Source: a virus. From it: a stretch of DNA of 48,469 nucleotides. Shown one piece after another: positions 29,077 through 37,195 of this stretch. A model generated the notes under the pieces. The model did no database searches and was not told the DNA's origin. It saw nothing but the letters and a program-made list of their open reading frames with translations. Each line of letters starts with the position of its first letter. The stretch's first letter is position 1. Location: the IMG/VR virus record IMGVR_UViG_3300025646_000067, positions 1-48,469 of that record; one strand, given 5' to 3'. Both the position numbers and the translations under genes were made by a program.

Positions 29077-30390
29077 TTAGTAAGGTTTCTTTGCAAAAGT
29101 GTCTTTTACAAGTGTCATACTAGTAAAAGTATCTCTTGGAGTTATTCTGTGACATAAACTGGATATCATATATAGACCACTAGTTCTTTCATTTTGATCT
29201 GTATTTGGGTTTCCAGAAACTTGAGGAAATTTACACCAAACTATGTCTCCTGCTCTTAAAGATAAATCACCTGCAACTACTATATTTATTTTAACAGAAA
29301 AAAGTTGATTATATCTCATTATGGACTGAACCATAATTTGTTCAACATCCCATGTAGGATTATAAGGACTACTTTTCCAAGACTTAAGTTGTGCTACAGC
29401 AGTTTTTCCCGCAGGTAATGTTCCAACATCTTTAATGTGTGTCATAAGTCTAGAAATAGGTAATCTAAACTCATCTGCAATATAGTTGATAGGATCTTCT
29501 CCTGCATGAACTACTTTATCTTTTTGATTTTCATCATAACTAAAGTTTCTAACATCATAATCCATAGCATAATAATCAAAAAATATACTTCTATTAGAAT
29601 AAGTTCCTAGTACAAGTTTTTCTTGTAAATCAATATTTCTATCTATATTATAGGATAAAACTTTTTCAAAACCACTTTCTGTTTCATGTGTGTCGTTATA
29701 TAAGTACTTTTTTTTATAGTTTTGGGATAGAAGTCCATCAATAGATCTAAAATTAAATGCTTCATAAGTTTCATAAAAAAAGTATCCAGCACAAGATCCT
29801 GGTTTACCATAACCAGAAGGAGCTGATCTTGACGCTAACCAGTTACAGATATAAAAAGGTTTTCTATCATTACCTATAAAGTTGTAATCTATTAAAGTAT
29901 CATCTAGTATAATATCTTTTTTAACTAAAAGTTTTTTTTGTAGTATTGTTTTAACGTTTTCTGATATTTTACCATCATATCTTTCAACAACTCTAGACTG
30001 TTCATTTGCTAACATCTCTTTAGTACAAAGATCAATAAAATATGTTTCTGTTGTTGTCTTTGGAGAGACTGTTTTTACTCTATTAACATACAAATCCATA
30101 GATAACTTAGTTGGGTTATCTTTAGCATCATTAAACTCAACTTCTACTAGTTCACCACCTCTTATAGGAAGACTATCTAAAATAGCAACGCTTTCTACTG
30201 GTTTATCGTTATCTCCTGCTTTAAAACCAGTATCAGTAAAAACTGCTGAAGCAGTTATTGATCCCGATAAAACATTTTCATAATATCTAAACTCAGATAT
30301 CCCTCCTCTCAAATCAACAGATTTATTTGTTTTTGTGTTGTATATGATAAACTTAGAAAGATTACCAGCTAAAGTATCCTTATTTTGCAT
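29077..30390 (-). CDS. baseplate hub protein (gp27-like)
   Basis: 437 aa. A beta-rich protein (SKFIIYNTKTNKSVDLRGG ... YENVLSGSITASAVFTD) of the length and order expected for the gp27 hub subunit (T4 gp27, 391 aa), which binds gp5 and forms the tail-tube connector. I base this on gene order (tape-measure-like, hub, gp5) and overall pattern rather than on an invariant motif. The ATG overlaps the stop of the 921-aa gene (TAATG). It is followed by the 71-aa gene after 9 bp. Confidence 0.55.
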   Translation of the reverse strand: MQNKDTLAGNLSKFIIYNTKTNKSVDLRGGISEFRYYENVLSGSITASAVFTDTGFKAGDNDKPVESVAILDSLPIRGGELVEVEFNDAKDNPTKLSMDLYVNRVKTVSPKTTTETYFIDLCTKEMLANEQSRVVERYDGKISENVKTILQKKLLVKKDIILDDTLIDYNFIGNDRKPFYICNWLASRSAPSGYGKPGSCAGYFFYETYEAFNFRSIDGLLSQNYKKKYLYNDTHETESGFEKVLSYNIDRNIDLQEKLVLGTYSNRSIFFDYYAMDYDVRNFSYDENQKDKVVHAGEDPINYIADEFRLPISRLMTHIKDVGTLPAGKTAVAQLKSWKSSPYNPTWDVEQIMVQSIMRYNQLFSVKINIVVAGDLSLRAGDIVWCKFPQVSGNPNTDQNERTSGLYMISSLCHRITPRDTFTSMTLVKDTFAKKPY

Positions 30391-33155
30391 TATCCTTGTT
30401 TATATAATTGACCCAATAATTGGATAGTATAATAACTATTTAACATATATTGAGAGTTTTTTCCTATTGGAATAAACTGAGATGATTCACTATAAATTTG
30501 ATCTTCGGATGATGGTAGAGGTATTGGAACCATAGATGCTCTTCCACCTCCTTGTTCATATCTAGCTCTTTGATTTAAGGATCCGAAGTTATATCTAGAA
30601 GAAGATTGAGGTGAAGATTGTATTTGAGATTGTGGTTGAGAAGACTGATCTCCATTTAAAATATCTCTTCTATTAGGATTCTCAGATTCAGTAATTTCAA
30701 GATCTTGTTGTCTCTGTTCTGGTATTTGGGGAGAAGGTGTTGGAGAATTGAGTTTACCTAAGTTTAGTTTATTTACATAAGAATTATATTTTCTAACCCT
30801 ATCGTTATATCCATTTATTTGAGAAGGTCTTGTTGCTGCTGGATAGTTTATTGCTTTCGAGTGTAAAAATACATTATCCCAATCACCATTAACAGTTGGT
30901 CTTACTGAAGCTTTCCAATATGCAACAGCTATCTTTGCCGCTAACTCTCCATCCATTGCCAAATCAGGATTATTGATTAAATCAACTCCAAACATTTTTC
31001 CATATTTTCTATAGTTATAATCATGAGTTAGTTGAACATATCCTCTTCCATGGTATTTTGCATTATAAGTTTTTCCATCTGGTCCAGTCCATGGACCTCC
31101 TCCACCATAGTGAGATGATCCTCCACTTATTTCTCTTCTATATTTAAATCCACCAGATTCATGAGACATTTGTGCGAGGAAAGCAGCAAGTTCTTTTCCT
31201 TTTATTCCTGCTTGCGATGCTGCTTTTATTAAAGGAGCTTCACCATACTCTCCAGTTCCAACACTTAAACTAGTAGTATCTCTGGTTTGATAAACTTCTC
31301 CCAAAGATCGTTCATCTTGATCTCCACTTGAAGATGGAAGTTCCATATTTCCCATATCTGGTGGGGTATATTTTGGTTTTTCATTCGATGTTCCTAAGAA
31401 TGAGTTTTTAACATGTTTTAAGAAAGCTATAGGATCTTTTACCATAAATGATGGGTCTGGTATATGAGAAAACTTTCCTTTTTTATTTCCAAACCAACCA
31501 TTATCGGATATAAACTTAAATGGACTTAATGGGAACTTACCCAAGAAGTCATGCATTCCTGGAAACTTACCTGATCTCCATAAAGTTGCTGCCTCTAAAG
31601 CTGCTTGAATAGGACCAGGAATTCCTGGATTTGGTATTCTTAGTTTTGGCCAGTTATTGATGTAGTTGGTAACACCTTTACCTAACCAATCCATCACAGT
31701 TTTACCAACATCAAATGCTTTCTTAAGATCATTCCATAAAATCTCTCCAGCTTTTTTCCATCCACCTTCTGTTTTTAATCCATGATAAAATAGATTACCA
31801 ACATATTCACCAATATATTCACCAAGCATCATTCCTAATATTGGAATAGGAATAAAGTTTCCAAGCAATCCGCCAATAGCTGCTCCACCTGCTTTAAATA
31901 AAGTTTGACTTGGAGGATCTCCACTTAACCAAGAATCAATAGCAACCAATAATGGTCCAATAATTGGTATCCTTATTGCTTTCTTAGCACCTCTAGCAAC
32001 ATTTTTAGCTGCAGAAGCACTAGAAGGTGCTGCTGCTGTTGGTTTTGGTGCTGCTGTTGGTTTTGGTGCTGCTGTTGGTTTTGGTGCTGCTGTTGGTTTT
32101 GGACCAGGCTTTTGTGGTTGATTTTTTATAGATCTTTCTGCTGCTTTTTGAACTGCTTTGACAGCACCTTTTGCTCCCTGACCACCTTTTAATGCTCCAG
32201 TTGAAGCTCGAAATGCTCTTGCTCCAAATCTAGACGCTTGAGCAGCAATATTTGCTGCTGCTTTAGCCGCATCAAAAAGTTTTTTTCCAAGTTTAAATGC
32301 AGAAGATAATGCTATTTTTATTGCTTTCCCAACTCCAAGAGTTAATCCTTTTATAGATTTTCCAGTAAGATTAAAAGCAAGTTTTAATGCCTTTCCAGGA
32401 AGATAAAATGGATTTAATAAAGACTTAGTAGTAAATTTTAAAAGTTTTAAAAAAGGTTTTCTTAGTTCTGGACCTAATAGTAATCTAGTAAAAAATCTCC
32501 AGTTTTTTACAGCAACGTCAATAGCCTTAAATAAAGGTTTTTGATTATTTAATAAAAACTTTAACAATCCACCAATAAGGATATTAGATAAAAATCTTTT
32601 TATTATATCAAAAAACCCAAGTTGAGGAGCTTTAATATTATCACCAGATTTAGAAATATTTTTACTAGATTTTTCTTCAAGATCAGATTCTCTAGATGCT
32701 TTATCTTCTATCGATTGTTGTATTCTTCTTTTGTTTTCAGATTTTTTATCTAGTTTAGTATTATTTTGTATGACTTTACTTAAAGACTCTAAAGAAACTC
32801 TTATTTCTTTAACTTTTTTCAGAATAGGAGAATATTTATTACCACCAACAGATTCAGATTGTATATTGTCCGATTGTACTTTTCCCAATAACTTTTCTCT
32901 AGTTATTGTAGATGGTTTTATCGTTAAACTATAAGGAACTTTTTTCTGAGAATTAACATCAGATTTTATCTTACCATTCAAAGCATTTTGTATATTTTCT
33001 TTTGCTTTATTTTTGAGAAATAATTTTGCCTTATCTTTAAAAACTGATTTAGCTTTATTTTTTACAGCAGATTTTACTGTGCCTTTAACAAACCCTTTGG
33101 CACTTTCTTTTGCTAGTAATCTTGCTGCTGTTCCCAATAAAGCTGGTATTGCCAT
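30390..33155 (-). CDS. tape-measure-like protein with C-terminal GH19 (chitinase/lysozyme) domain, 921 aa
   Basis: 921 aa. The N-terminus is basic and helical (AVKNKAKSVFKDKAKLFLK). Residues about 190-215 and 405-450 are hydrophobic segments (LIGGLLKFLLN, IPILGMMLGEYIGEYVG). Ala/Pro/Lys repeats lie at 350-375. Residues about 640-790 are a glycoside-hydrolase family 19 domain: AAFLAQMSHESGGFKYRRE, then YHGRGYVQLTHDYNYRKYG and the DPDLAM-type end. It would degrade peptidoglycan glycan strands on entry. The segment EDKASRESDLEEK and the following hydrophobic stretch resemble the 753-aa protein beside it. Together the two take the position of gp29-type tail proteins. Confidence 0.75.
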   Translation of the reverse strand: MAIPALLGTAARLLAKESAKGFVKGTVKSAVKNKAKSVFKDKAKLFLKNKAKENIQNALNGKIKSDVNSQKKVPYSLTIKPSTITREKLLGKVQSDNIQSESVGGNKYSPILKKVKEIRVSLESLSKVIQNNTKLDKKSENKRRIQQSIEDKASRESDLEEKSSKNISKSGDNIKAPQLGFFDIIKRFLSNILIGGLLKFLLNNQKPLFKAIDVAVKNWRFFTRLLLGPELRKPFLKLLKFTTKSLLNPFYLPGKALKLAFNLTGKSIKGLTLGVGKAIKIALSSAFKLGKKLFDAAKAAANIAAQASRFGARAFRASTGALKGGQGAKGAVKAVQKAAERSIKNQPQKPGPKPTAAPKPTAAPKPTAAPKPTAAAPSSASAAKNVARGAKKAIRIPIIGPLLVAIDSWLSGDPPSQTLFKAGGAAIGGLLGNFIPIPILGMMLGEYIGEYVGNLFYHGLKTEGGWKKAGEILWNDLKKAFDVGKTVMDWLGKGVTNYINNWPKLRIPNPGIPGPIQAALEAATLWRSGKFPGMHDFLGKFPLSPFKFISDNGWFGNKKGKFSHIPDPSFMVKDPIAFLKHVKNSFLGTSNEKPKYTPPDMGNMELPSSSGDQDERSLGEVYQTRDTTSLSVGTGEYGEAPLIKAASQAGIKGKELAAFLAQMSHESGGFKYRREISGGSSHYGGGGPWTGPDGKTYNAKYHGRGYVQLTHDYNYRKYGKMFGVDLINNPDLAMDGELAAKIAVAYWKASVRPTVNGDWDNVFLHSKAINYPAATRPSQINGYNDRVRKYNSYVNKLNLGKLNSPTPSPQIPEQRQQDLEITESENPNRRDILNGDQSSQPQSQIQSSPQSSSRYNFGSLNQRARYEQGGGRASMVPIPLPSSEDQIYSESSQFIPIGKNSQYMLNSYYTIQLLGQLYKQG
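32033..32100. repeat. 18-bp tandem repeat, about 3.8 copies
   Basis: Unit GGTGCTGCTGTTGGTTTT (18 bp), repeated perfectly in the GH19 gene. On the minus strand it codes for TAAPKP-type hexapeptides, a flexible linker. Full copies start at 32047, 32065 and 32083. Confidence 0.85.
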
Positions 33156-35416
33156 TATCCACCAATGTTATAGATTGCTTTAACGATAAACAAATGAGGA
33201 TTATCATTATCAATTGAAGAAAATTTTGCTATAGGAGATTGATTTGGACTATTAGTTGCACCGTTATTAGTATATTTATTATCAGGTAATGGTAAAGGTA
33301 ATATGGTCAGTGGTTCAGCATTATAATCCATCTCAGGTATACCTATAGAACTAGATCTATTCATCATTTGCCCTTCACTTATATAATCTTGACTTACTTC
33401 TTCACCTGCACTTGAAGAAGATCCATATGTTGGATTTCCTGAAGTAATATAGTTGACAAAAGCTTCATGTCCTGCAGGTTCTGCATCCAAATGCAAGTGA
33501 TCAACATAGTTACCACCACTTCTTCCTTGTGTTCCAATAATAGTGCCAGCTTTTATTCTAGTTCCTCTCCTAAAATTTCCAAATCTACTCAAGTGAGCGA
33601 ATAGCATATTACCAGTGGCATTTTTAACCACAACAGTATTTCCATAACCACCAGCGACACCTTTATAAATTACTTCAGAATCTAAAGGAACTGGTACATC
33701 TGAATTTGGTGAAGTTTGAAGATCTGTTCCGTTTAATAATGTATAATCTTTTGGATATCCATCCGTTCTTCTTGTAGTAGGACCACTATGGTGAGGTCTA
33801 AGATCCCGATAAGAATATGTTTGACCAGGATTTAATAGTTTATTTCCTCCCCCATTTACACTAAAATATTTTATTCTTCCAGCATATCCTCCACTGGACA
33901 TTGCTTTTATTTTATTAGAAGCTGCAGTTTTTGGTTTATTTGCATTAGGACCACCAAATACAGCATTTAAACTAAGAAGATTTTCTACGCCATAAGAATC
34001 TGCAGCTTTTTTATTAATAACAACTTCTCCTGGTTGTGCAGCAATAAGTTGTGTATCTGGTCCCAATCCAGAAATAGTTATTCCACTATTTTTGTCTATA
34101 GCTCCACCAGATTTAAATGATAGATCTTTGGCATTTATAACCGTTTTTTCATTATTATTAACATTTATGATTTGTCCTCCAGATTGTTGAGATTGAACAG
34201 GAGAACTTGATGGAACATCTGCAAAAGTTGCTTCTGGTATTAAACCATCATCTGGAAGATTTGGTATTTGAGGTATTTGTACAGGATCTTTAATCGGATC
34301 TGGTTTAATGGGAATCCAGTTTGGAATGGAGTTTATTATTCCATTAATAGTATCTGTTAATGCTTTTAACCCACTATTAACAGCATCAATCATACCTCTT
34401 ATTGGTTGAATAAATGTATCATCTATCCATTTTATTATACCATTAAAAAATCCTATGACATTGTTTATAATGTCTTGTATTGGTTTAAGTATTATTTGTG
34501 GATTTTTTATTATATTAAGAAGTCCTTTAAGAAATCCACCAAGTAAAATAAACTTAAAAAAGTTTAATATTCTATCAAAAAAGTTTTCAAAAGGAACTAT
34601 TGCTTTTTCAGCTTTTTTAGAATCTTTATCATCATCAGTTTTTTCTAGATAAGATTCTCTCGATTTTTTATCTTCTCTTGATTTTCGTATTCTTTGTTTT
34701 TCTTGATCCGATCTTATTAACTTAGATTGAGATTTAAATGATTCTATTATAGAGTTTATACTTTTTTTTATAGAGTCTAACTCTTTTACTATAGAATTTA
34801 ATACTTTTTGCTCTTGTTTTTGCTTATCTTCATCATCTTTTAATGGTAATAACTTTTTAACGTCGATCTTACCAGATTCAATTTTTGATATTACTATTTT
34901 TGAAGATTTTTCTGCTATTTCATCAATATTAATATCTTTTTTTTCTTCCTCTTTTTTTTCCTCTTTTTCTTTTTCTTCTTTTACTTCTTCTTTTACTTCT
35001 TCTTTTACTTCTTCCTTAATATTATCTTTTACTTCTTCCTTTATTTCTTCCTTTACTTCTTCCTTAATATTATCTTTTATTTCTTCCTTAGCATCATCTT
35101 TTACTTCTTCACTTACTTCTTCAGTTACTTCTAATGGAAGCAACTTATCAACATTTATTTTCTTTGATGTTATTGATATGTCATCTTTTGTATCATCATT
35201 TTGTTCTTGTTCTTCAACAAATGAGTTAGCCATGTCGCTAAGATCATTTGCATTCCCTTTAAAAAGATCTGAATCTATATTTCTTTGTTCTGTTTCACTT
35301 AAAGAGTTATAAAAAGCAGAAAGAATTTTTATTTGTTCATCAGTAAGCTTAGATACTATTTTTTTACCGAGCTTAAACTCATATGCCTTTCTTAGTTTTT
35401 CTGCTCGACTACTCAT
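33155..35416 (-). CDS. tape-measure-like protein with C-terminal M23 endopeptidase domain, 753 aa
   Basis: 753 aa. The N-terminal 90 residues are helical (RAEKLRKAYEFKLGKKIV). Residues about 95-160 are a Lys/Glu-rich KEEV repeat, probably a long coiled coil or charged helix. A hydrophobic segment follows (FFKFILLGGFLKGLLNIIK, about 270). The C-terminal third holds an M23 metallopeptidase: HH (about 540), GTD (about 563) and the HLHLD box (about 637). M23 enzymes cut peptidoglycan cross-links. The HxH box is intact, and the first His and Asp fit the usual spacing loosely. It shares RKSREDKKSRESYLE and the next hydrophobic part with the 921-aa neighbour. Confidence 0.75.
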   Translation of the reverse strand: MSSRAEKLRKAYEFKLGKKIVSKLTDEQIKILSAFYNSLSETEQRNIDSDLFKGNANDLSDMANSFVEEQEQNDDTKDDISITSKKINVDKLLPLEVTEEVSEEVKDDAKEEIKDNIKEEVKEEIKEEVKDNIKEEVKEEVKEEVKEEKEKEEKKEEEKKDINIDEIAEKSSKIVISKIESGKIDVKKLLPLKDDEDKQKQEQKVLNSIVKELDSIKKSINSIIESFKSQSKLIRSDQEKQRIRKSREDKKSRESYLEKTDDDKDSKKAEKAIVPFENFFDRILNFFKFILLGGFLKGLLNIIKNPQIILKPIQDIINNVIGFFNGIIKWIDDTFIQPIRGMIDAVNSGLKALTDTINGIINSIPNWIPIKPDPIKDPVQIPQIPNLPDDGLIPEATFADVPSSSPVQSQQSGGQIINVNNNEKTVINAKDLSFKSGGAIDKNSGITISGLGPDTQLIAAQPGEVVINKKAADSYGVENLLSLNAVFGGPNANKPKTAASNKIKAMSSGGYAGRIKYFSVNGGGNKLLNPGQTYSYRDLRPHHSGPTTRRTDGYPKDYTLLNGTDLQTSPNSDVPVPLDSEVIYKGVAGGYGNTVVVKNATGNMLFAHLSRFGNFRRGTRIKAGTIIGTQGRSGGNYVDHLHLDAEPAGHEAFVNYITSGNPTYGSSSSAGEEVSQDYISEGQMMNRSSSIGIPEMDYNAEPLTILPLPLPDNKYTNNGATNSPNQSPIAKFSSIDNDNPHLFIVKAIYNIGG
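34940..35127. repeat. degenerate KEEV/KEEI codon repeat
   Basis: A long purine/pyrimidine-skewed tract (TTACTTCTTCTTT-type units) coding on the minus strand for tandem KEEV/KEEI/KDNI tetrapeptides, about 16 units. Such low-complexity tracts can expand and contract. Confidence 0.8.
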
Positions 35417-35580
35417 TAGGATTTTTGTTGCTGTTTTAGCTTTTCTTCTTCTAAATGATTAATTAGCATACCAACATAAATGTCTCTTTCCCAAGGTATC
35501 AAGTTTTCAATCTCAGTTAATGAATATTTATGGTATTGAATGAGAGAAAAATTTAGTTTAAAATAGTTCTCAAGATCCAT
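35416..35580 (-). CDS. small tail/baseplate assembly protein (gp51-position ORF)
   Basis: 54 aa from MDLENYFKLNFSLIQY, with IPWERDIYVGMLINHLEEEK, a motif like the second open reading frame of tail-assembly chaperone pairs. I chose the ATG at 35578-35580 because AGGA lies 9 bp upstream; an in-frame ATG 9 bp earlier sits right on the AGGA. The stop overlaps the 753-aa start as TAATG. The frame also runs open upstream into the gp26-like gene in the -1 frame through a slippery heptamer (see findings). It may therefore be made both alone and as a fusion. Confidence 0.6.
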   Translation of the reverse strand: MDLENYFKLNFSLIQYHKYSLTEIENLIPWERDIYVGMLINHLEEEKLKQQQKS

Positions 35581-35591
35581 GTATACCATTC

Positions 35592-36308
35592 CTAAGCGAA
35601 AAAACTTGATAATCCCTCCAGTGTAACACTATTCTCCACATCAGTATTTGGATTAATAAAAGTTACAGTGTGAGAAAGTTTTGGCATTGTATTGAAAAAA
35701 TCATCAATTTGTTTGAACTGAATGCTATTCATTCCCTCTAAAAATTCAACAATCTCCTTTTTAGTAACGTCAGAATAAGACCAAACTTCTTCTTGATTAT
35801 AAATTTTACTTACACATCCAGCGATCAACTCAAATGACTGATCCATTCCTTGCTCTTCTAGAGTAAAGTTATTTTTAATAAACTCATCTAAAGATGGATA
35901 TCTCATTTCTAAAAATAAGTTTGATCCCAAATCAATTATATTAGTGTGCTTTTCATTTTTAATAACTTTAATATCTTCCACATTAATATTGACTGTCACA
36001 GAAGTTTCTCCATCATCTGGAGCAATTAGATTTACTTCAATATCTTCTCCAACAGATTTTCCTCTGATATTTAAAAATAAGTATTCAATATCAAAAGTTG
36101 GAAGTTCTTCTACTTTTATTCCTCTAGTTTGAATGCAAGACTTTAAAACTTGTTTTAAAGCATTAGTGATTTGTTTAGTGTCTTCTGTTTCCATAGCAAG
36201 AAGAAGAAGTTTTTCTTCTTTCACTAAAAATGGTCTAAACTTTATCGTTTTTCCTGTAGATGGTAAATCTATTTCGTAAGTTGGAGTTGCAATTTTTGGT
36301 AAAGGCAT
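35592..36308 (-). CDS. gp26-like baseplate/hub assembly protein, 238 aa
   Basis: 238 aa of the T4 gp26 baseplate family: MPLPKIATPTYEIDLPSTGK, FRPFLVKEEKLLLLAMETED, and LKQVLKSCI. It is the right size (T4 gp26, 208 aa) and lies at the baseplate gene cluster. The C-terminus ends GLSSFFA with codons AGT TTT TTC GCT TAG. A late-type octamer candidate (CTAAATA) sits about 35 bp upstream. Known family role: baseplate hub component or assembly factor. The end contains a slippery sequence, described separately. Confidence 0.75.
   Translation of the reverse strand: MPLPKIATPTYEIDLPSTGKTIKFRPFLVKEEKLLLLAMETEDTKQITNALKQVLKSCIQTRGIKVEELPTFDIEYLFLNIRGKSVGEDIEVNLIAPDDGETSVTVNINVEDIKVIKNEKHTNIIDLGSNLFLEMRYPSLDEFIKNNFTLEEQGMDQSFELIAGCVSKIYNQEEVWSYSDVTKKEIVEFLEGMNSIQFKQIDDFFNTMPKLSHTVTFINPNTDVENSVTLEGLSSFFA
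35598..35604 (-). other. possible programmed -1 frameshift site (TTTTTTC)
   Basis: On the minus strand the zero frame reads AGT TTT TTC GCT TAG, so the heptamer T TTT TTC is in the X XXY YYZ phase that favours -1 slippage. In the -1 frame the reading continues through CGC TTA GGA ATG into the 54-codon ORF at 35416-35580. This would give a fusion of about 297 aa. No downstream stem-loop is obvious by eye. Confidence 0.5.
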
Positions 36309-36352: not shown

Positions 36353-37195
36353 TTATGCGACACCCAATCCAAATGGTCCAGTATTTGATCCATCAAAGAA
36401 ATCAGCACTATTTGTGGAATTTTGTGTATTGTCACCAAAGTTATTATAATATTCATTACTTAATACATTTGATTGATAATTAAATGTATTAACTGGAACT
36501 TGTTGTGTAATAAACTCAACAGTATTATTATTATTTGATGGTGTATTTGTTGGAACTTGAGATATAACTCTGGATCTTGCTTGATTAACAAGATATCTAA
36601 CAAAATAAAAACTAACGTTACATTTCAAAATATCACTTGGACCATAACTAACTGGCATTGCAACAATATTGTAAGGAAAAGCACCGATTATTTCATATTC
36701 TAAAGTAGGTCCACCTATTTTTCTAGGAGGGAGTGGGGATCTATTTTGGTAAAAATGATCCTTTTCAAATTTTACTATATTCAAAGAAGATCTATAAAGA
36801 ATAGGATAGTTCATTCTATAAAAAGAGTTTAGTTCACGATATCCATTTTTACTTTTAGTATATCCTTGACCTGCTATCATTTCAATCCAATTTTCAAAAA
36901 AAGATATGACATTATATTCTCTATCCACATAAAATGTCATATTAAAAGATTGATCGTATATTCTTCTATAAGCCATTTTTTCACTTACTCCATGAAAATC
37001 ATTTGTAACATCATGGGTTGCAAGTGAAGATCCAGGCAAAGTTGCATCACAACACAATAAACTGATGTTTTCAGTGGGTTGTTGCATTACTGCTGGAGGA
37101 ACTATATTTAACTGATATAATGAAGTTTGCGAAAGATTTAATGCTCTAGATTTAAAATCACTAATAGTATATCCTTGGGGTTGTACGGCAGACAT
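36353..37195 (-). CDS. gp54-like baseplate/tail-tube initiator
   Basis: 280 aa with the block ISLLCCDATLPGSSLATHDV, then YRRIYDQSFNMTFYVDREYN and FFENWIEMIAG. This is the pattern of gp54-type proteins of cyanophages, which cap the baseplate hub and start tail-tube assembly. T4 gp54 is 320 aa. It is divergent from the + strand gp4-gp48-gp53 block. The C-terminal 70 residues are Asn/Gln-rich and probably flexible. The ATG sits within a divergent promoter region (37196-37227). Assignment is from motif memory and gene order. Confidence 0.7.
   Translation of the reverse strand: MSAVQPQGYTISDFKSRALNLSQTSLYQLNIVPPAVMQQPTENISLLCCDATLPGSSLATHDVTNDFHGVSEKMAYRRIYDQSFNMTFYVDREYNVISFFENWIEMIAGQGYTKSKNGYRELNSFYRMNYPILYRSSLNIVKFEKDHFYQNRSPLPPRKIGGPTLEYEIIGAFPYNIVAMPVSYGPSDILKCNVSFYFVRYLVNQARSRVISQVPTNTPSNNNNTVEFITQQVPVNTFNYQSNVLSNEYYNNFGDNTQNSTNSADFFDGSNTGPFGLGVA

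Follow-up and report, generated by a model that had tools for sequence, protein, structure and literature searches.

In the DNA of the marine T4-type phage analysed here (IMG/VR virus record IMGVR_UViG_3300025646_000067, positions 1 to 48,469; this whole stretch is hereafter called the window), a gene for a gp26-like protein is followed on the minus strand by a small open reading frame (ORF) usually annotated as a stand-alone gene 51, which raises the question of whether these are two genes or one gene read in two frames. A first-pass annotation made from the sequence alone had proposed that a programmed -1 frameshift joins them, in the manner of lambda gpG/gpGT. Our follow-up indicates that gp26 is very probably a tail assembly chaperone produced in a short form and, by -1 programmed frameshifting into the 51 domain, a long form. 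From the sequence, its conservation, the reading frame, relatives lacking a gp51 start codon, homology to T4 gp51 and a predicted chaperone fold, we infer slippage itself, its rate, the effect of the stimulators and the chaperone role.

The junction of genes 26 and 51

On the minus strand, gp26 ends in ACA CTG GAG GGA TTA TCA AGT TTT TTC GCT TAG GAATGG. The heptamer T_TTT_TTC lies in slippery phase, as the first-pass annotation had stated, and GCT is the single sense codon separating it from the TAG stop codon. After a -1 slip, reading would continue as CGC TTA GGA ATG GTA TAC ATG.., translated FF-RLGMVYMDLENYF.., for 60 further codons, giving a predicted 26-51 fusion of 237 + 60 = 297 amino acids (aa) with the predicted junction peptide ..SSFFRLGMVYMDLENYF... 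The earlier estimate of about 297 aa was therefore exact, and the downstream ORF described as having 54 codons does so when counted from its second ATG (57 from the first, at 35589); its other statements on the sequence were likewise borne out. The small ORF matched phrog_634, labelled 'baseplate hub assembly catalyst' (gp51). The intact TAG, from which the shorter product had been expected to arise, is present, and close-relative loci all keep an in-frame stop at this place. TTTTTTC is common in the AT-rich window (47 copies versus 35 expected); chance was therefore judged by conservation rather than by heptamer count.

Conservation among close relatives

The close-relative set comprised 80 IMG/VR contigs, P-TIM68, P-SSM2 and the window (83 loci), from which near-identical loci were removed to leave 80 non-redundant loci for the conservation counts; the close relatives share ancestry, so these counts are not independent. 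The gp26 proteins of the relatives' loci were 27 to 40% different from that of the window. The heptamer was TTTTTTC in 80/80 loci, the gp51 frame was -1 relative to gp26 in every one of them, and in none did a stop codon interrupt that frame between the slip site and gp51. The first-pass annotation had held that a heptamer lost from phages keeping both ORFs would speak against its proposal; the opposite was found, and the lambda-like junction is supported. The Ser codon preceding the heptamer ended in T in 79/79 cases (TCT or AGT), and other Phe-Phe pairs within gp26 were encoded by TTT TTC in just 1/79. Conservation of the heptamer at this one site is far beyond chance.

Conservation of the start codon bears on whether gp51 is made separately, by re-initiation or coupling at its own ATG just past the end of gp26, with the T6C run being incidental. 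An ATG beginning 5 nucleotides (nt) after the start of the gp26 stop codon is present in the window and in 52/80 relatives, most loci have a further ATG at codon 7, and GenBank records frequently annotate gp51 in this way. However, the codon at the usual start was TTG in 1/80 loci and a non-start Leu codon (CTA, CTG, CTC or TTA) in 27/80; it thus always encodes Met or Leu, as expected for an internal residue of a fusion, within a junction conserved as R-[ILV]-[GASV]-[ML] in the -1 frame. One relative (L028) had no ATG or other start codon in the first ten codons of its gp51 ORF, and several phages lacked a start before the domain core. No Shine-Dalgarno (SD) sequence was found at any candidate start in 72 of the 80 loci (gp26's own start also lacks one), and separate synthesis leaves both the 80/80 heptamer and the in-frame fusion of T4 (see below) unexplained. 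We therefore consider a separately translated gp51 very unlikely.

Distant T4-like phages

The downstream ORF was also in the -1 frame relative to gp26 in 29 further distant loci, from T4-like phages or their kin (16 + 13), and 14/16 loci of the first distant set showed this layout with T_TTT_TTN (N = any base). The site was T_TTT_TTC in Kyanoviridae, Eurybiavirus, the Aeh1 and KVP40 groups, Bakedbeans and Mendera; T_TTT_TTT in Melnitz, Cr30, pf16 and loci L108-L109; T_TTT_TTA in RHph_I1_18; and T_TTT_TTG in RHph_I1_9. In the two Rhizobium phages, the last base turns Phe into Leu, with T6 still in phase; as T6 is kept in phase while the last base and the residue vary, selection acts on the nucleotides.

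This bears on the possibility that the constraint is on the protein alone, Ser-Phe-Phe being required at the C-terminus and the heptamer being a by-product. The Phe-Phe pair is indeed invariant in the aligned gp26 proteins of the relatives, but the synonymous codons are frozen as well (TTT TTC in 80/80, with TTT making up 72% of Phe codons in the remainder of gp26), and the Rhizobium phages replace Phe with Leu while retaining T6, which leaves this explanation barely conceivable.

Transcriptional slippage, in which RNA polymerase would shift the frame by inserting an extra base while copying the T run, would be expected to give a nearly identical protein; a poly-T run is the common feature of these sites, and Melnitz has 8 T. 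Nearly all cases have just 6 T, however, which is short for bacterial RNA polymerase slippage, the T run keeps a constant phase with respect to the codons, and an SD-like element at the spacing of a ribosomal stimulator (see below) would make no sense. We regard this explanation as highly improbable.

No ATG, GTG or TTG was found ahead of the 51 domain core in Syn30, S-RIM2, P-RSM1, ACG-2014d, S-RIM8, Aeh1 and Melnitz. The -1 ORF opened exactly at the slip site, with a stop just before it, in P-HM2, MED4-213, S-RIM8, ACG-2014f, L106 and L107, and that of Melnitz likewise opened at the slip site. Accordingly, gp51 is missing from the records of Syn30, P-RSM1, ACG-2014d and S-PRM1 and truncated at an internal Met in those of S-RIM2, S-RIM8 and P-HM2; no examined record carries an annotation for a joined 26-51 product.

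IME-SM1 was the one relative whose 51 domain was not in the -1 frame: there, the end of gp26 has a T5 run and a +1 offset, and the annotated gp26 carries a wrong C-terminal tail. This phage was considered as a +1 case and dropped: because other phages of its genus carry one T more and Mendera has the canonical T6C, the missing T is likely a homopolymer sequencing error.

Comparison with T4 genes 26 and 51

T4 gp26 and gp51 are both named hub assembly chaperones; gp51 is required for assembly and is not in the particle, and the presence of gp26 in the hub is disputed (PMC3004832). T4 carries genes 26 and 51 side by side in divergent orientation, one on each strand, and has no frameshift between them. 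Both T4 proteins matched PF12322, and T4 gp51 also matched phrog_634. Profile comparison using hhalign aligned the gp26 family with T4 gp51 residues 7-200 (E=2e-10), the last aligned residue being the slip-site Phe, and the -1 domain with residues 200-246 (E=1e-7). Because one alignment stops where the other begins, at the predicted slip site, T4 gp51 resembles a single-gene version of the fusion, corresponding to the long form, and T4 gp26 resembles the short form.

Ten T4 relatives had the two-gene 26/51 layout, and the relatives retrieved with T4 gp51 were only close T4 relatives, all with this layout. Aeh1- and KVP40-type phages, which also belong to Straboviridae, retain the frameshift layout, which suggests that the two-gene state of T4 is derived. 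In one of the ten (L102, approximately 2790-2860, near AAAAACCC), the T4-like gene 51 was split into two frames, by either a sequencing error or a real mutation.

Candidate stimulators of frameshifting

An SD-like GGAGGG, encoded by the 'LEG' codons of gp26, precedes the heptamer, and the deepest mean anti-SD pairing of the region across the 80 relatives fell at this element. The Glu codon at the site was GAG in 62/80 loci versus 33% elsewhere, and where it was GAA, the next Gly codon was GGG in 17/18 versus 9% elsewhere; this skewed codon choice points to selection on nucleotides. With approximately 24 nt between the element and the gp51 ATG, it is too distant to act as the ribosome site of gp51.

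RNA downstream of the slip site was somewhat more structured than shuffled sequences (mean z -2.1), and the relatives' form of a candidate hairpin, GATCC ATAT GGATC, has five pairs. Covariation in this stem gave 41 double-changed cells versus 7.7 in shuffles, with 0/500 shuffles reaching 41. RNAalifold predicted no structure on 79 aligned junctions. The hairpin was found through per-sequence folding z-scores and inspection and then tested on the same data, the sequences are related, and the stem is weak in the window itself (4/5 pairs); for these reasons, its assignment as a stimulator is tentative. The bias towards SD-like codons is strong, and both it and the covarying hairpin may be stimulatory. 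Our confidence is high for the -1 frameshift signal and lower for the stimulators.

The arrangement recalls the -1 signal of E. coli dnaX, in which an SD-like sequence lies approximately 10 nt upstream of the heptamer and a stem follows downstream. The slippery site and the gene differ, and the hairpin here is small and starts approximately 10 nt downstream.

Predicted fold and proposed mechanism

The AlphaFold model of gp26 (predicted local distance difference test score, pLDDT, 86) was compared with known structures using VIA-align. The top match was the HK97 tail assembly chaperone (2ob9, Z 7.8), followed by 3fgx, 3klu and 5ir0, which we take to be structures of the same type; the fifth-ranked match dropped to Z 2.1. 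The model thus gives moderate grounds for a resemblance between the first 90 residues of gp26 and tail assembly chaperones. A PDB sequence search with gp26 found no match, and the 62-residue -1 domain had no clear PDB match.

In the proposed mechanism, the majority of ribosomes would halt at TAG and release the 238-aa short form. A smaller share of them, with the P and A sites both occupied by tRNA-Phe on TTT TTC, would slip one base back to TTT TTT, probably aided by binding of GGAGGG to the anti-SD of 16S rRNA and perhaps also by the small downstream hairpin, and would read on through the 51 domain to make the 297-aa long form. If the roles follow those of lambda gpG/gpGT, the tape-measure protein would be coated by the 26 part, with the 51 part bringing in tube or hub subunits.

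Some observations weigh against this reading. In the window, the small ORF has kept its ATG and has a weak SD (-4.8) ahead of the second ATG, which leaves some room for separate translation in this phage. In Vibrio phages VP-1 and K444 (L092 and L093), GTT TTT or CTT TTT replaces T_TTT_TTN with the -1 layout kept, a variant resembling the GTTTTT motif reported for the family of phage Adele. The chaperone-like fold match covers gp26 residues 1-90 only and is moderate, with Z under 8.

Gene neighbourhood

The coordinates of the junction and its neighbours are given in Table 1. The first-pass annotation had placed large tape-measure-like genes downstream; their position agrees with this, but profile matches of the 753-aa and 921-aa products gave peptidase and chitinase domains, and no tape-measure family matched over their length. 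Large downstream genes are annotated as tape measure in Cr30 and RHph_I1_18, with no tape-measure match among the window profiles. The genes at 30390-33155 and 33155-35416 both matched phrog_35029 and contain similar hydrophobic stretches (FFDRILNFFKFILLGGFLKGLLNIIKN / FFDIIKRFLSNILIGGLLKFLLNN), although their domains differ (M23 peptidase in one, chitinase-type in the other); they are possibly duplicated tape-measure-like genes.

Table 1. Positions of the 26/51 junction, its candidate signals and the flanking genes in the window
Feature	Position	Strand	Basis
gp26 gene, encoding the 238-aa short product (T4_baseplate family; predicted short-form tail assembly chaperone)	35592..36308	minus	PF12322 E=1e-71; phrog_150 E=5e-78
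Slippery heptamer T_TTT_TTC	35598..35604	minus	80/80 relatives; T_TTT_TTN kept in phase by the majority of distant T4-likes
Zero-frame stop TAG closing the short product	35592..35594	minus	Sequence; in-frame stop here in 83/83 loci
Extension in the -1 frame (FF, 60 codons and stop), predicted to supply the small gp51 domain at the C-terminus of the fusion	35416..35604	minus	Open in 80/80; phrog_634 E=3e-26
57-aa ORF that is usually listed as a separate gp51 gene	35416..35589	minus	Sequence; start codon not conserved in relatives
Candidate stimulator, an SD-like GGAGGG lying upstream of the heptamer at a distance of 9 nt	35614..35619	minus	Anti-SD pairing and codon choice in 80 relatives
Candidate downstream hairpin, GGTAT ACAT GGATC in the window (4/5 pairs)	35574..35587	minus	Covariation
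Upstream tail-tube-fold protein gene	36353..37195	minus	PF23849 Phage_TTP_2 E=1e-11; phrog_45 tail tube E=8e-35
Downstream 753-aa gene, M23 peptidase domain, tape-measure position	33155..35416	minus	PF01551 E=6e-14; tape-measure role from position only

Relation to known systems

The locus shares with lambda gpG/gpGT a gene order running from a tail-tube-type protein through the chaperone to a large tail protein, and the predicted fold of gp26 is of the HK97 chaperone type. It differs in its slippery site, in the length of gp26 (238 aa, with an extra C-terminal part past chaperone-like residues 1-90) and in the candidate SD-like stimulator, and sequence similarity is not claimed. In P2 E/E+E', a T6G run directs a -1 shift into a second ORF that lacks a ribosome site and extends back into the first gene (PMC3931495). 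The heptamer is of the same T6 type, one Rhizobium relative having exactly T6G, whereas the last base is mostly C here and the protein family is different. Vandenendeviridae and Andersonviridae (phage Adele, PMC12846349) likewise show a conserved -1 open frame and a poly-T motif, GTTTTT, at the end of the chaperone gene, but these are other phage families and the motif is not T_TTT_TTN. T4 gp26/gp51 belong to the same PF12322 family, but T4 and its close relatives use two divergent genes instead.

Atkins et al. 2016 (PMC5009743) describe frameshifted tail assembly chaperones as widespread, 'except T4'. The first-pass annotation knew of no such frameshift in T4-type phages. T4 itself indeed lacks one, but the finding is less new than that implies: as cited in two later papers (PMC10885494 and PMC12846349), T4-like tail assembly chaperones were identified by Vladimirov et al. 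2022. Citing that work, the PRFect paper (PMC10885494) states that some T4-like phages dispense with frameshifting and have a short gene alongside a longer, fused one, and the Adele paper (2025, PMC12846349) mentions poly-T frameshift signals in T4-like chaperone genes. In literature outside subscription journals, we found no report of genes 26 and 51 being linked by a frameshift in cyanophages and no description of the start-codon loss, the SD-like codon choice or the hairpin. The frameshifted-chaperone kind and the T4 link are already known, and the phage-wide 26/51 layout may be partly or wholly described already.

More broadly, in T4-type phages outside the T4 clade a three-part signal (GGAGGG or GAAGGG, T_TTT_TTN and the covarying hairpin) may set the ratio of short to long form, and an ancestor of T4 may have duplicated the gene and split it into 26 and 51, secondarily losing frameshifting; on this proposal, our judgement is evenly divided. 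If it is true, its new parts would be the two stimulators (SD-like element and hairpin) and the succession of these evolutionary steps. The probable -1 frameshift itself corrects the annotation of gp26/gp51 in the T4-type cyanophage records examined, in which the 51 domain is now separate, truncated at an internal Met or omitted. It also offers a natural comparison of frameshifting and gene duplication as two routes to a fixed protein ratio in tail assembly.
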